DNA from: Curtobacterium sp. MCBA15_001
Lineage (GTDB): Bacteria > Actinomycetota > Actinomycetes > Actinomycetales > Microbacteriaceae
Assembly (NCBI RefSeq): GCF_001864835.1
Contig: NZ_MJGI01000003.1
Span: 62,001-126,000, forward strand
Reading direction: 5' to 3'
DNA: 64,000 nucleotides
Position numbers and translations under genes: made by a program. Position 1 is the stretch's first letter. The number at the start of each line of letters is the position of its first letter. Shown here one piece after another: positions 1,492-7,776 of this stretch. The notes beneath the pieces are model-generated. The model searched no databases. It was not told the DNA's origin and was given only the letters and a program-made list of their open reading frames with translations.

Positions 1492-1576
1492 TCGGGTACT
1501 GAGAGGACGGGTTGATGAGTACCCGATTGCACGCCCAGCACGATACAGGCCATGTCCCCTTTGAGTACCCGATTGC
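1492..1576. repeat. GTACCCG repeat cluster 1
   Basis: Three copies: an inverted pair (1492-1500 against 1518-1526, 9-bp arms) and a third at 1563-1576 preceded by TCCCCTTT. The 18-base form spanning 1554-1571 recurs at 4129-4146 and 5657-5674. Confidence 0.7.
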
Positions 1577-1627
1577 ACTCCCACTTCGGGCTGGAAAAAC
1601 CTCTCGTTTGATTGCTGATTCGCCCTA

Positions 1628-1640
1628 CGGCGATAGGAAT
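1628..1640 (+). promoter_or_regulatory. AGCCGATAG-family promoter motif, VirB6-like gene
   Basis: GGCGATAGGAAT, 28 bases before the ATG at 1669. TTGATT at 1608-1613 lies 18 bases upstream of GATAGG, a plausible -35. Confidence 0.5.
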
Positions 1641-1668
1641 ACAGCACCCAACGAAAGGGAACTACATC

Positions 1669-4041
1669 ATGTTTCACGCAATCAGCTCGGGCTATGCGCT
1701 CCACATCCACTCACCGCACACCAGCAAGCAGCTTCTTCGCCGTCAAGTTCAGAGTAGGAGAAAGCAGCAACTCACCAGGCTCGCCGCAGGTGTTCTACTG
1801 GCGGCTACTTTCGTGTCTTTTCTGACCGCGGCGTTCACGGCAACCGCTGCTACCTCGCAACAGGCTCGCGCCAACGTGATTTCGGACCTGGTGTGCGTCA
1901 GTGTGAGCGACGGCTCCGAAGCAGGCAGCTTCTCCAAGTCCGAGCAGTTCAAGGCACTTGGTGGTTCCACCGCTTCCATGAGGGAAGTTCTCCCTGGCAC
2001 GAAGAAGCACCCCACCAACCTGAACGCGCTCCTCATCCCAAACAGTGCGGGGGCTGTCACCGCTCTGCCGAAGAAGTACACCGTCACTGCTCTTGAACGT
2101 TACGGGGCTGCGAACCCTCAGTTCAGCAGTTGGACTCCTGGCTTCAAGGACTCGGGCGGCTTCACCTTCCACGGAGTGGCAGCGCGTGATGCGGGTGTCG
2201 CTCAGGACGGCTCGGGGAACGTGAGTGTGGGAACCGCTGCTGGGAGTGAGGAGCTGCAAGCAGGGAGCAGCAAGCTCTTCACCAGTAACCCCGTTGCCTG
2301 CACGAACCTGAGCGGTGAAGTCACCACCCTTGCCGCCAACACACTCTCTGTTCCTGCTCGCCTGCTGGTCACCGTGACCGCACAGGTGTTCACCTCCACC
2401 CTCGGGCAGGGCATCAGTGATGAGGACTCGGTTCTGCATCCCCTCGTAAAGGTCGTGGACACCCTCATCACGGGCAAGGGCGGACTCAGGGACACCCTCT
2501 TCGTTCCGTTCCTCATCCCCGTGATTCTGCTCGGCGCAGTCTGGGTCGGCTACATGGGCATCGTCAAGCGTGCAGCTGTCGTCGCTCTGCAAGGGACTGT
2601 GTGGATGGTTGCAGCCGTTTCGATGGGAACTGTCTTCCTCGCGCAACCCTCACTGGTTCCTGGTTATGTGGACGGCTTTGTTCAAAAAGTCAAAGTGATT
2701 GTGAACGACGGTGTGAACGTCAGCCAGCCGTCCGACTCTCTCTGCAAGGCGAGCGGCGAGAACGTCACCTCTCGGCAGAGCGCCTGCCTCCTCTGGGAAG
2801 CCGCCATCTACCAGCCTTGGGTTTCAGGCCAGTTCGGAACAACCTCCACTGCGACAGGCTCAGCCCTTACCACCGACCCGCGGGGCATCTTGAAGAACTC
2901 CTCCTACGTTGCAGCCCGTGGGAAAGAGAACGTCAAGTTCAGCAACTGGGCTGAGTTCCAGTTGGACCGCTCATCCACGAACCGAGCCTTGCAGGTTTCC
3001 GAGGTGGCGTACACACAACTCGGCACTGGGAGCAACGGGTTGTGGGCTGGGGATTCGCAGGGTCAGATTACGCAGGCAGTGATGATGAACATCACGGCCC
3101 TCGCAGTCTGCTCGTTCCCGCTGCTGCTGAGCCTCACCAGCCTCATGTTGCAAATCCTCACGCTGCTTGCGATTGCACTCGCGCCGTTCTTCTTACTCCT
3201 CGGCATCATCCCGAGCTGGGGAACCCGAGTTATCCTGCGCTGGTTTGAGCTGCTCGCAAACATCGGTATCCGCTCAATCGTCAACATCGCGGTCTTCGCT
3301 ATCTACATGCTTGTGTTCGGGCTGATGATGTCAGCGAACGTTCCCACCATCCTGGTGGTGGTCCTCACCATCGCTCTCGGGCTGACCATCTTCAAGATGC
3401 GCGGCTTCCTGAACTCAGCAAGTACGGCTCGCTTCGGTGGGGATGCGCGCTTCGGGCTGCCAGGTGCTGGCAAGCTCACCGCAGCTCTCTCGGGAGGCGG
3501 GGTAGCTCTCGCCACGGGTAACCCCTTCGCTGGCATGGCCGCAGCCCGTAGGGCGAAGGAAGATGCCGCAGCGTTCACGCCGAAGGGCGGTAAGGTCGGA
3601 GGAGGGAACGGCTCCCCCGTGGCCGACGTGAAGCCGCTGTTTGATGCGGGGCGACAGGTGAACAGAGCCGCGGCTTCTTCCCCTACCCCAGCGGCTCCTC
3701 CCGCCCGCACCGTGGAGGTCGTGCAGCAGGTAGCGCCAGTAGTACAGCGAACAGCACAGCCGCAGCCTGCTCCTGCTCCTGCTCCTGCTCCTGCTCCTGC
3801 TCCTGCTCCTGCTCCTACCCCGCAGCCTCAACGGCATGTCTTTTCTCAACATGGGCAGCAGGAAGCCAACCCGCAGCCGACCGCGGCAGCGCCAGTTCCA
3901 CCAGCGCCGAAGCCTGCCCGAGCTGAGGGGAAGCCGCCGTTCAACCCGAGCAGTGGAAGCCCATCAGCTCAGCCCCATAGCCCGAAGCCGAAGGTGAAGG
4001 TGAACAGCAAGCCCGCTTCTTCGGCTCCCTTCCCTCGGTAG
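1669..4041 (+). CDS. VirB6/TrbL-like conjugation membrane protein
   Basis: 790 residues from ATG 1669, preceded by AAAGGGA. An in-frame ATG at 1612 lies upstream of the promoter motif and is not the start. N-terminal hydrophobic segment at about residues 37-62, a polar exported stretch, two membrane helices at about 280-335, a second polar loop, then a cluster of three or four helices at about 465-580. The C-terminus (580-790) is polar and proline-rich with a (PA)n run encoded by a hexanucleotide repeat at 3768-3816. This layout fits the polytopic channel component VirB6/TrbL of type IV secretion; no sequence motif proves it. Its place in a rep- and recombinase-bearing element supports a conjugation role. 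Confidence 0.6.
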   Translation: MFHAISSGYALHIHSPHTSKQLLRRQVQSRRKQQLTRLAAGVLLAATFVSFLTAAFTATAATSQQARANVISDLVCVSVSDGSEAGSFSKSEQFKALGGSTASMREVLPGTKKHPTNLNALLIPNSAGAVTALPKKYTVTALERYGAANPQFSSWTPGFKDSGGFTFHGVAARDAGVAQDGSGNVSVGTAAGSEELQAGSSKLFTSNPVACTNLSGEVTTLAANTLSVPARLLVTVTAQVFTSTLGQGISDEDSVLHPLVKVVDTLITGKGGLRDTLFVPFLIPVILLGAVWVGYMGIVKRAAVVALQGTVWMVAAVSMGTVFLAQPSLVPGYVDGFVQKVKVIVNDGVNVSQPSDSLCKASGENVTSRQSACLLWEAAIYQPWVSGQFGTTSTATGSALTTDPRGILKNSSYVAARGKENVKFSNWAEFQLDRSSTNRALQVSEVAYTQLGTGSNGLWAGDSQGQITQAVMMNITALAVCSFPLLLSLTSLMLQILTLLAIALAPFFLLLGIIPSWGTRVILRWFELLANIGIRSIVNIAVFAIYMLVFGLMMSANVPTILVVVLTIALGLTIFKMRGFLNSASTARFGGDARFGLPGAGKLTAALSGGGVALATGNPFAGMAAARRAKEDAAAFTPKGGKVGGGNGSPVADVKPLFDAGRQVNRAAASSPTPAAPPARTVEVVQQVAPVVQRTAQPQPAPAPAPAPAPAPAPAPTPQPQRHVFSQHGQQEANPQPTAAAPVPPAPKPARAEGKPPFNPSSGSPSAQPHSPKPKVKVNSKPASSAPFPR

Positions 4042-4043
4042 CG

Positions 4044-6520: not shown

Positions 6521-6534
6521 AAGCCGATAGGAAT
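6521..6534 (+). promoter_or_regulatory. AGCCGATAG-family promoter motif, replication-relaxation gene
   Basis: AAGCCGATAGGAAT, 46 bases before the ATG at 6581. No clear -35. Confidence 0.5.
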
Positions 6535-6580
6535 CAACATAGGTTCCAACACGACTTTTGTACGACCGAAGGATACAGCA

Positions 6581-7669
6581 ATGAACACACCATTTCCAGG
6601 CTCCACGAGCCTCACACACCAGCAGATGCACCCAGCCCCAAACGCCGTTAGCGACGATTTTGACGATTGGGAAGATGGGGCTTATACACCTGACGCTTCC
6701 CAAATCCAGTACCGCAAGAATGGCCGAGAGGCTTCCCGAACCATCTCGGAAGCACGAGCAGGGCTGCGTATCCAGCCTCGGGATGTCGAGCTGCTCACGT
6801 TCGTGGAGCAGCACGGTTTCGCCCTCGCCAGTCACCTCTCACGACTCACAGGGGACTCCGAAAGCGCCGTACAGCAGCGAATGAAGAAGCTCGCCAAGGG
6901 GTTCTGGACGACCTCCGTAGCGATGGATGCAGGTCGGCTCGTGTGGCTCCCAACGACTGACACGAGCCTGCTCACTGGACTCGACCTACCCATCACCAGA
7001 GGTGGAGTGAAGGACGCACTGTTCCGCCATCAGTACGCCGCAGCAGCTGTCTCAGCAGAGCTGCAACGCATCACACCGAACGACGCTTCCGACGTGCTGG
7101 GAGTCGCTCGGCAGGGCGATTCGTTCCCGATGCGGTCCCGTTTCCCTCACAACGAGATGCTCTTCAACGAGCCGTTCGAGGGCGTAGCGCCAGGCTACGG
7201 GGAGACTGTTTTGACGGAGCGACAGCTTCGTTCAGGGCTTGATGCGTTTCGTGCGCAGCGGAGCCGCGACGAGATGCGACGCGCTGTTGCAGTCGCCTCA
7301 GCAGACCCTGACGCACCTGAACTGAACCTCGGCGCGGGTGCCTTGTTCATCATCTACCGAGACTCAACAGGCACGGGAGAGCATGTTCCTGACCTCGTTG
7401 CCGCCCGTCCGAGAGGCGAAGACGGACACCCGCGGCATGTTGCTGTGGAGGTTGAGCTGACTCCGAAATCCACTGATGAGTACCGCGCGATCCATCGTGC
7501 CTACTCACGCTATGGAGACATGTACGAGCGTGTCGTGTGGTTCACTCCCCGCTCCGACATCGCCAACCTGCTGCGATCCGTGAACACGGGATCGGACGAC
7601 ATGGGCGACCGCTGGCAAGTGCGGAAGCTCCCCGCGCGGTTCGTCTACCAAGCCTTCACGACTCGGTAA
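6581..7669 (+). CDS. Replication-relaxation family protein
   Basis: 362 residues from ATG 6581, with GAAGGA at 6568-6573; the longer frame from 6287 runs through the promoter and operators and is rejected. A winged-helix-like segment at about residues 57-105 (RDVELLTFVEQHGFALASHL) is followed by a C-terminal region with PDLVA (about 265), VAVEVELTPK (about 284) and a Tyr-rich helix. This order matches the Replic_Relax family (PF13814) of actinobacterial plasmids and conjugative elements, whose C-terminus resembles a PD-(D/E)xK nuclease fold. Likely role: DNA processing in replication or transfer; the biochemistry is not established. Upstream operators suggest tight control. Confidence 0.8.
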   Translation: MNTPFPGSTSLTHQQMHPAPNAVSDDFDDWEDGAYTPDASQIQYRKNGREASRTISEARAGLRIQPRDVELLTFVEQHGFALASHLSRLTGDSESAVQQRMKKLAKGFWTTSVAMDAGRLVWLPTTDTSLLTGLDLPITRGGVKDALFRHQYAAAAVSAELQRITPNDASDVLGVARQGDSFPMRSRFPHNEMLFNEPFEGVAPGYGETVLTERQLRSGLDAFRAQRSRDEMRRAVAVASADPDAPELNLGAGALFIIYRDSTGTGEHVPDLVAARPRGEDGHPRHVAVEVELTPKSTDEYRAIHRAYSRYGDMYERVVWFTPRSDIANLLRSVNTGSDDMGDRWQVRKLPARFVYQAFTTR

Positions 7670-7680
7670 GCATCCCTTGC

Positions 7681-7776
7681 GCGTACCCGATTGGACCCCT
7701 CCCGTGGTGGTGCGGGAGGGGTTTCGTCATGCGTGCAGCGCCAACACGGGGACATGGATTGAGTACCCGATTGCTC
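7681..7776 (+). repeat. GTACCCG repeat cluster 4
   Basis: Copies at 7681-7692 and 7761-7776. The second has GGGGACAT at 7748, 15 bases upstream of GTACCCG. They flank the terminator at 7695-7722. Confidence 0.7.
7695..7722 (+). terminator. Terminator after replication-relaxation gene
   Basis: 10-bp GC-rich stem (7695-7704 with 7713-7722), 8-base loop, then TTCGTC. Confidence 0.7.

Follow-up and report, generated by a model that had tools for sequence, protein, structure and literature searches.

Dispersed two-box sites, putative operators of one element-encoded protein, in an integrated element of Curtobacterium sp. MCBA15_001

The stretch of DNA analysed here (the window) comprises 64,000 nucleotides of Curtobacterium sp. 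MCBA15_001, C3:62001–126000, where C3 denotes contig NZ_MJGI01000003.1 in a genome of 3.78 Mb and 27 contigs. The GC content is 56–62% at window positions 1–14000 and 67–74% further on (2 kb steps), and the left edge of the low-GC island is located near C3:47 kb. The right end of the island is formed by a large serine integrase (C3:74252–75967). The drop in GC and the terminal integrase at a tRNA-Arg gene therefore place the finding within an integrated element roughly 28 kb long (about C3:47–76 kb); the window covers its right part only, with the left half outside. A crude search for an attL repeat found none. The element carries a dispersed family of polar two-box sites, which may be operators for a protein encoded by the element itself.

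Seventeen sites, 16 clear and one weak, are spread over 15 kb, 11 of them in the window and six to its left. A position weight matrix (PWM) was trained on 16 hand-seeded sites, and the scores of these training sites (19.5–37.8) are biased upward by construction; host DNA (75 kb) reaches 7.5 at most, and five mononucleotide shuffles 13.8. A match of 12.4 at C3:53124 was left out of the count. The sites are as follows, with window coordinates first and the PWM score in brackets.

1505–1529, plus strand: site C3:63519, right half GTACCCGATTG with a weak left part (24.8)
1552–1575, plus strand: site C3:63565, flipped left box ATGTCCCC, then TTTGA and GTACCCGATTG (37.0)
4088–4114, plus strand: site C3:66104, GGGGACAT-N8-GTACCCGATTG, directly past a terminator-like stem at C3:66043–66079 (30.8)
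4129–4148, plus strand: site C3:66140, GTCCCTTTTGAGTACCCGTT (31.9)
4193–4219, plus strand: site C3:66209, GGGGACAT-N8-GTACCCGTTTA (22.3)
5275–5305, plus strand: site C3:67291, GGGGACAT-N8-GTACCCGTTTA (37.6)
5313–5330, plus strand: site C3:67324, GTCCCC-N5-GTACCCC, degenerate, overlapping a terminator-like stem match (23.7)
5339–5361, plus strand: site C3:67351, GTCCCCC-N5-GTACCCGTTTA, followed by TATATT (24.9)
5657–5678, plus strand: site C3:67668, GTCCCTTTTGGGTACCCGTTTA, followed by TACATT (37.8)
7683–7693, plus strand: site C3:69683, right half only (25.5)
7748–7773, plus strand: site C3:69763, GGGGACAT-N7-GTACCCGATTG (19.5)
Left of the window: sites C3:54741 (plus), 54760 (minus), 55529, 56951, 58374 (minus) and 58431 (plus)

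The bare heptamer GTACCCG, whose copies were counted in the initial annotation, marks the family poorly. It occurs 38 times in the window on both strands (6.6 expected), 15 times inside 1492–7776, and is unspecific: 22 of the 38 copies are in host DNA past 14000, and the copy at 8535 lies within an open reading frame (ORF) and has none of the remainder of the motif. Extended to GTACCCGWTTR, the pattern occurs nine times in the window, always at 1519–7773, and 13 times in the whole genome, all 13 in the element (C3:54755–69773); the reversed-pattern control gave 0. The fixed spacing described initially is exact, with GGGGACAT starting 16, 16, 16 and 15 bases ahead of GTACCCG at 4088, 4193, 5275 and 7748 (mean of 100 shuffles, 0.00), and the family is larger than first noted. 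A fifth copy of GGGGACAT-N8-GTACCCG lies left of the window, and the two-part site occurs five times in the genome, each time in the element. Equal abundance in the host chromosome, which by the initial annotation would have refuted its reading, was checked and does not hold for the two-part site or for GTACCCGWTTR, although the bare heptamer is common in the host part of the window.

Outside this genome the pattern was sought in several collections. Of 398 family genomes, only the host contains a 16-mer form, which matches eight of the element's own sites; the 397 others lack it. A strict 19-mer, matching four of the 17 own sites, gave two loci with a single match each in a collection of species genomes that may leave out the window's own genome; these fall in a spirochaete and a Beggiatoa-like metagenome-assembled genome, unrelated phyla, and were read as chance. 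An 18-mer pattern gave three loci in viral contigs, with one match each, 30–45% GC and no cluster, and these were likewise attributed to chance. BLASTN with an inverted pair of sites gave no match in plasmids and four in phages, all with E 8. Relatives carrying a diverged site would escape both the 16-mer and the 19-mer. As far as these scans reach, the site set is specific to the element.

The site itself consists of two boxes, with positions counted from the G of GTACCC. Positions −5 to +9 have a high information content (0.5 to 1.9 bits); leftward of them it is low without vanishing, and there two classes blur each other in the PWM. The right half is nearly invariant (TTTGA/G-GTACCCG-A/T-TT). 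Five sites have an exact GGGGACAT as left box, four at −16 and one at −15, and three have its reverse complement ATGTCCCC at −13; every one of the eight exact octamers in the element, whichever way it faces, belongs to a site and stands at one of these fixed offsets. Degraded left boxes are found in further sites as GTCCC at −11 or −12 and as GGGACAT in 54760, and sites 63519 and 69683 have little besides the right half. The 18-base GTCCC form described initially at 1554, 4129 and 5657 is present at these positions and corresponds to the flipped ATGTCCCC class, exact at 1554 only and degraded at 4129 and 5657. By eye, an imperfect dyad can be drawn in the six sites of class I and in none of the eight of class II, the flipped-box class; three sites are assigned to neither class. 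Two inverted pairs are formed, 54741 (plus) and 54760 (minus) head to head, and 58374 (minus) and 58431 (plus) tail to tail with matching ends of approximately 20 bp. Sites 67291 and 67668 have 27 bp in common at 93%.

The recognisable genes around the sites are listed below. As the gene calls come from our own greedy script with hand-picked starts, the boundaries are approximate.

1669–4041, plus strand: P0001, a membrane protein of the CD3337/EF1877 family that we take to be TrbL-like (E 3.1e-15, under the curated cut-off)
4273–5211, plus strand: P0002, NikA-like, a possible ribbon-helix-helix (RHH) followed by a long coiled coil (PF21983, E 0.0011)
6581–7669, plus strand: P0003, weakly MobC/replication-relaxation-like (E 9e-4, far under the cut-off; start picked by eye within an ORF whose opening is at 6287)
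12252–13967, plus strand: large serine integrase, its 3′ end overlapping the tRNA-Arg gene on the opposite strand
C3:53438–54022: small serine recombinase of the DNA-invertase type (phrog_125, E 7.8e-67)

Further element genes are weakly recognisable as a plasmid-type Rep (presumably ColE2-like), a C5 methyltransferase beside an HNH protein, and an ApeA-N-terminal-like protein.

The sites occupy seven intergenic regions and one ORF. The initial claim that the copies are exclusively intergenic holds for 16 of the 17, site 56951 being the exception, and intergenic DNA makes up 5268 of the 28105 bases of the element (18.7%) by our gene list; the binomial value for this placement, 3e-11, is only indicative, as it treats clustered sites as independent. 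The claim that nearly all copies point the same way holds fully in the window (11/11 plus), and for the whole element the count is 14 plus and three minus. Five sites touch candidate promoters. Sites 66209 and 54741 are near a second repeat, GATAGGAAT, with GTACCC of 66209 starting 14 bases ahead of the GATAGGAAT box that precedes the NikA-like gene; site 67291 falls on the sole sigma70-like match (GGGACA-18-TATATT) of a 7.3 kb stretch; the remaining two are 67351 and 67668. Terminator-like stems were found by the scan tool ahead of sites 66104 and 55529, and by eye a stop codon is often followed by a hairpin, one or more sites, a promoter-like box and then the next gene.

The GATAGGAAT repeat is itself element-wide, with seven exact copies (window 1632, 4223, 6526 and 11170; C3:53430 plus, 54713 minus and 60256 minus). 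Four of the seven are located 35–37 nt upstream of a start codon and the others 14, 50 and about 55 nt; a separate GAAAGG-type ribosome site accompanies several copies. GATAGGAAT is perhaps a promoter −10 region or a leader signal.

Seven of the 17 sites flank the P0002 gene, one of the seven at the putative promoter of P0002 itself, and on this account P0002 is our leading candidate for the binder, probably autoregulated. In a single-sequence AlphaFold2 model of P0002, helices 128–141 and 145–159 are compatible with an RHH, with a long coiled coil after them. A second RHH in the first stretch of the protein was dropped, as the model shows a long helix there. P0008, whose gene has two sites upstream, is RHH-like by eye only and shows no real similarity to P0002. 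P0008 and P0004 are less likely candidates behind P0002. The model of P0004 is too poor for use (mean predicted local distance difference test, pLDDT, 42.8). Phmmer searches against the Protein Data Bank gave nothing for P0004 and P0002, and for P0008 one meaningless match (E 0.71).

The initial annotation had offered two readings of the repeat, an operator for an element-encoded regulator or a translocase site, and the former fits best because the sites are private, nearly all intergenic and short, with several at candidate promoters. We give an even chance to the proposal that they are element-wide, polar, bipartite operators for one DNA-binding protein encoded by the element. A dimeric or two-domain protein would contact both boxes. 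Bound over a promoter, it would repress initiation; bound between units or past a gene, it would block read-through or seed a silencing complex. The outcome would be a quiet integrated element whose units are kept separate.

A number of observations weigh against this proposal. No relative carrying the site was found in the family genomes, species genomes, plasmids and phages scanned. Site 55529, counted as the seventeenth, is marginal, its PWM score of 15.8 being barely over the best shuffle (13.8). Site 56951 lies within the 3′ part of an ORF (C3:56802–57812, outside the window); unless the ORF is miscalled at this point, its protein tolerates the site. Sites 69683 and 69763 are located between convergent genes with no promoter seen, the former being preceded by the stop codon of the MobC-like gene and followed by an inverted repeat that looks, by eye, like the terminator of this gene. 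The proposal does gain from orientation, in that fourteen of the 17 sites are co-directional with the neighbouring gene by hand count (one-sided 0.006, Fisher 0.029), but this figure is also the plain plus-strand count and comes from clustered, non-independent sites; the three others all lie in the minus-gene left part, and two of these form a pair with a site facing the other way. A bias of strand and one of transcription are not fully separable here. The sigma70 scan shows no excess, with one match found against 1.7 expected in the 7.3 kb stretch and one against 1.3 in the left stretch, the latter away from the sites, and terminator-like matches are little over shuffles (10 versus 6.5; 7 versus 5.5). 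Most promoter and terminator labels are by eye for this reason. Among the candidate binders, P0002 scores 19.5 bits against PF21983, under the Pfam cut-off of 27, with a model of middling quality (mean pLDDT 68.3); neither Pfam nor PHROGs gave a family match for P0008; P0004, part of a broader actinobacterial family, was dropped as a private regulator because seven of the other 393 genomes in the class have homologues.

At site 56951 the other strand encodes NRVPKGDI, in the C-terminal part of the ORF protein.

The closest parallels are found in phages and plasmids. Cluster A mycobacteriophages (L5, TipsytheTRex) carry more than 20 short asymmetric stoperators at promoters and in intergenic gaps, with orientation tied to transcription and two contact regions per site, and in phage L5 these stop read-through between units (PMC9283540). 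Many dispersed asymmetric sites in promoters and intergenic gaps are common to L5 and the element (here 17, 16 of them intergenic), whereas, compared by architecture, the site here is longer and has two boxes with a reversible left box. Unlike in L5 phages, no phage structural genes are recognised in the element. PHROGs gave no immunity-repressor family in any of the 26 element ORFs, the presence of the L5 repressor in that library being unchecked; weak generic helix-turn-helix or repressor overlaps concern the invertase-type recombinase and Rep only. In the omega/parS system of pSM19035, short boxes in direct and inverted orientation serve several promoters of one element (PMC9499535). The omega sites are 7–10 contiguous heptads accompanied by ParA, whereas single two-box sites and no ParA are seen here. 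The sps/SpdA2 system of pIJ101 has a motif nearly restricted to mobile elements and an element-encoded binder; unlike the present site, sps is a palindrome of 12 bp located at spdA, mostly in two to three copies and common to many plasmids (PMC4170104).

By analogy, the set of sites may work like the phage L5 stoperators or the omega/parS sites. The claim is limited to "works like" rather than "is" because the omega site architecture is not found here and a repressor and polarity of the L5 type are only possible features of the element. A bolder version, which we consider unlikely though not negligible, is that a non-phage integrative element insulates and silences its units by means of one NikA/RHH relaxosome-type protein on an element-wide, private set of polar two-box sites whose left box may be reversible at a fixed offset, a stoperator-like system that would have arisen from a conjugation protein. 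Dispersed, directional, element-wide control sites are well studied in one phage group; if another such set operates in an integrated element that is not a phage, silencing unit by unit would seem to be a more widespread route to quiet integration. The reversible left box offers a clean test of one protein reading two box arrangements.

Of the other explanations, the one that survives best, albeit as an improbable one, is that the sites serve a relaxosome, transfer or segregation, with the NikA-like/RHH protein coating dispersed sites and gene control secondary. The seven sites around the NikA-like gene fit this, as do four sites in a non-coding stretch of 1.1–1.4 kb that precedes the MobC-like gene and may well be an oriT or ori region, and in pSM19035 one RHH protein serves both jobs (PMC9499535). 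However, no relaxase, coupling ATPase or ParA was recognised among the element ORFs given to Pfam, the sites are single units over 15 kb rather than contiguous arrays, and six of them are in the left part, apart from the transfer-like genes.

We regard it as rather improbable that the sites are small mobile intergenic repeats multiplied within the element, of the kind of miniature inverted-repeat transposable elements, repetitive extragenic palindromes (REP) or bacterial interspersed mosaic elements (BIME). The two inverted pairs, in particular 58374/58431 with their matching ends, the similarity of 67291 to 67668 and the copy within an ORF would agree with multiplication. Against it, GTACCCGWTTR occurs nowhere else in the genome, unlike the host-wide spread of REP and BIME, no clustered copies were met in the other genomes scanned, conservation is concentrated in the short core from −5 to +9, and a box flipped at fixed offsets is unexpected from simple copying. 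No Y1 transposase domain (RAYT, REP-associated tyrosine transposase) was found in the element ORFs given to Pfam, the rest of the genome not being scanned.

Recombination sites of the small serine recombinase are a very unlikely explanation. The enzyme matches the DNA-invertase family and is encoded 0.7 kb from the nearest site pair, the site length is about 27 bp, and inverted pairs are present. Sites of serine recombinases are dyads, whereas the flipped-box class, about half of the copies, has no dyad by eye; in addition, recombination among seventeen active sites should scramble the element. Polar sites for an FtsK/TraB-type translocase, akin to the clt loci and TraB recognition sequences (TRS) of Streptomyces plasmids, are scarcely credible despite the orientation bias in the window (11/11) and the likeness of short repeats on an actinobacterial mobile element, as the six FtsK-family matches of the genome are on contigs C6, C21 and C7 with no TraB, FtsK or SpoIIIE match on C3, and in clt loci the repeats are clustered within a compact stretch (PMC3583192), whereas the sites here are dispersed over 15 kb. 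A signal at the RNA level (nut-like antitermination, attenuator or terminator) is equally hard to credit: the co-directional bias, the potential pairing of GGGGAC with GTACCC in one class and the terminator-like matches overlapping sites 67324 and 54760 favour it, but RNA folds are unremarkable at all 17 sites (z −1.8 to 1.4), the GGGGAC/GTACCC hairpin is impossible in the flipped class, and Rfam returned only a tRNA in the stretch searched (L008; L007 was not searched).

Relatives of the element proteins were sought in plasmids, genomes and viruses. P0001 has partial matches (23–31%) in four plasmid records. Rep matches 2935 plasmid records, at 29–33% among the 20 matches listed, and one of the 397 other family genomes (E 1e-10). 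No plasmid match was obtained for P0002, P0003 or P0005. P0003 has two weak partial matches in 59 other genomes of the genus; the 40 kb around these contain no further related gene except a methylase and a resolvase in one (L028). P0004 matches two plasmid records and no phage, and no relative of P0004 or P0002 was confirmed in viral scans. A literature search with both box strings together returned nothing judged relevant from the titles listed, and one with "stoperator" and "integrative and conjugative" gave no match; among the matches listed for GTACCCG with "plasmid", the paper examined has the string only inside a primer.

Plasmid pNPL1 has a TrbL-like protein in common with the element and an over-represented GTTCCCA motif. 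This motif was rejected as a counterpart of the dispersed sites, as 20 of its 23 copies form one compact array resembling the replication iteron of pWTY27. The GTTCCCA/TGGGAAC array is located at pNPL1 11082–11414 within an annotated ORF, and this ORF annotation may be doubtful.

At the left end of the element (C3:47863–51824), the ApeA-N-terminal-like protein, the C5 methyltransferase and the HNH protein form a possible defence module. A third repeat, approximately ATCGCTGAAAATGAGG, was recognised by eye at C3 about 55470–55500, 58325–58355 and 62840–62870 (window 840–870), in each case ahead of a gene, namely those of P0004, P0008 and Rep. Another repeat of about 25 bases, GGGAATATCCTGAYTTGGGTGTGTACCCCC, is located on both sides of the rep gene (C3:61744 and 63022, window 1022), both on the minus strand. 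The non-coding window positions 5960–6280, ahead of the MobC-like gene, contain by eye several TGTTCAC/GTGAACA units and small inverted repeats and are a possible ori or oriT.

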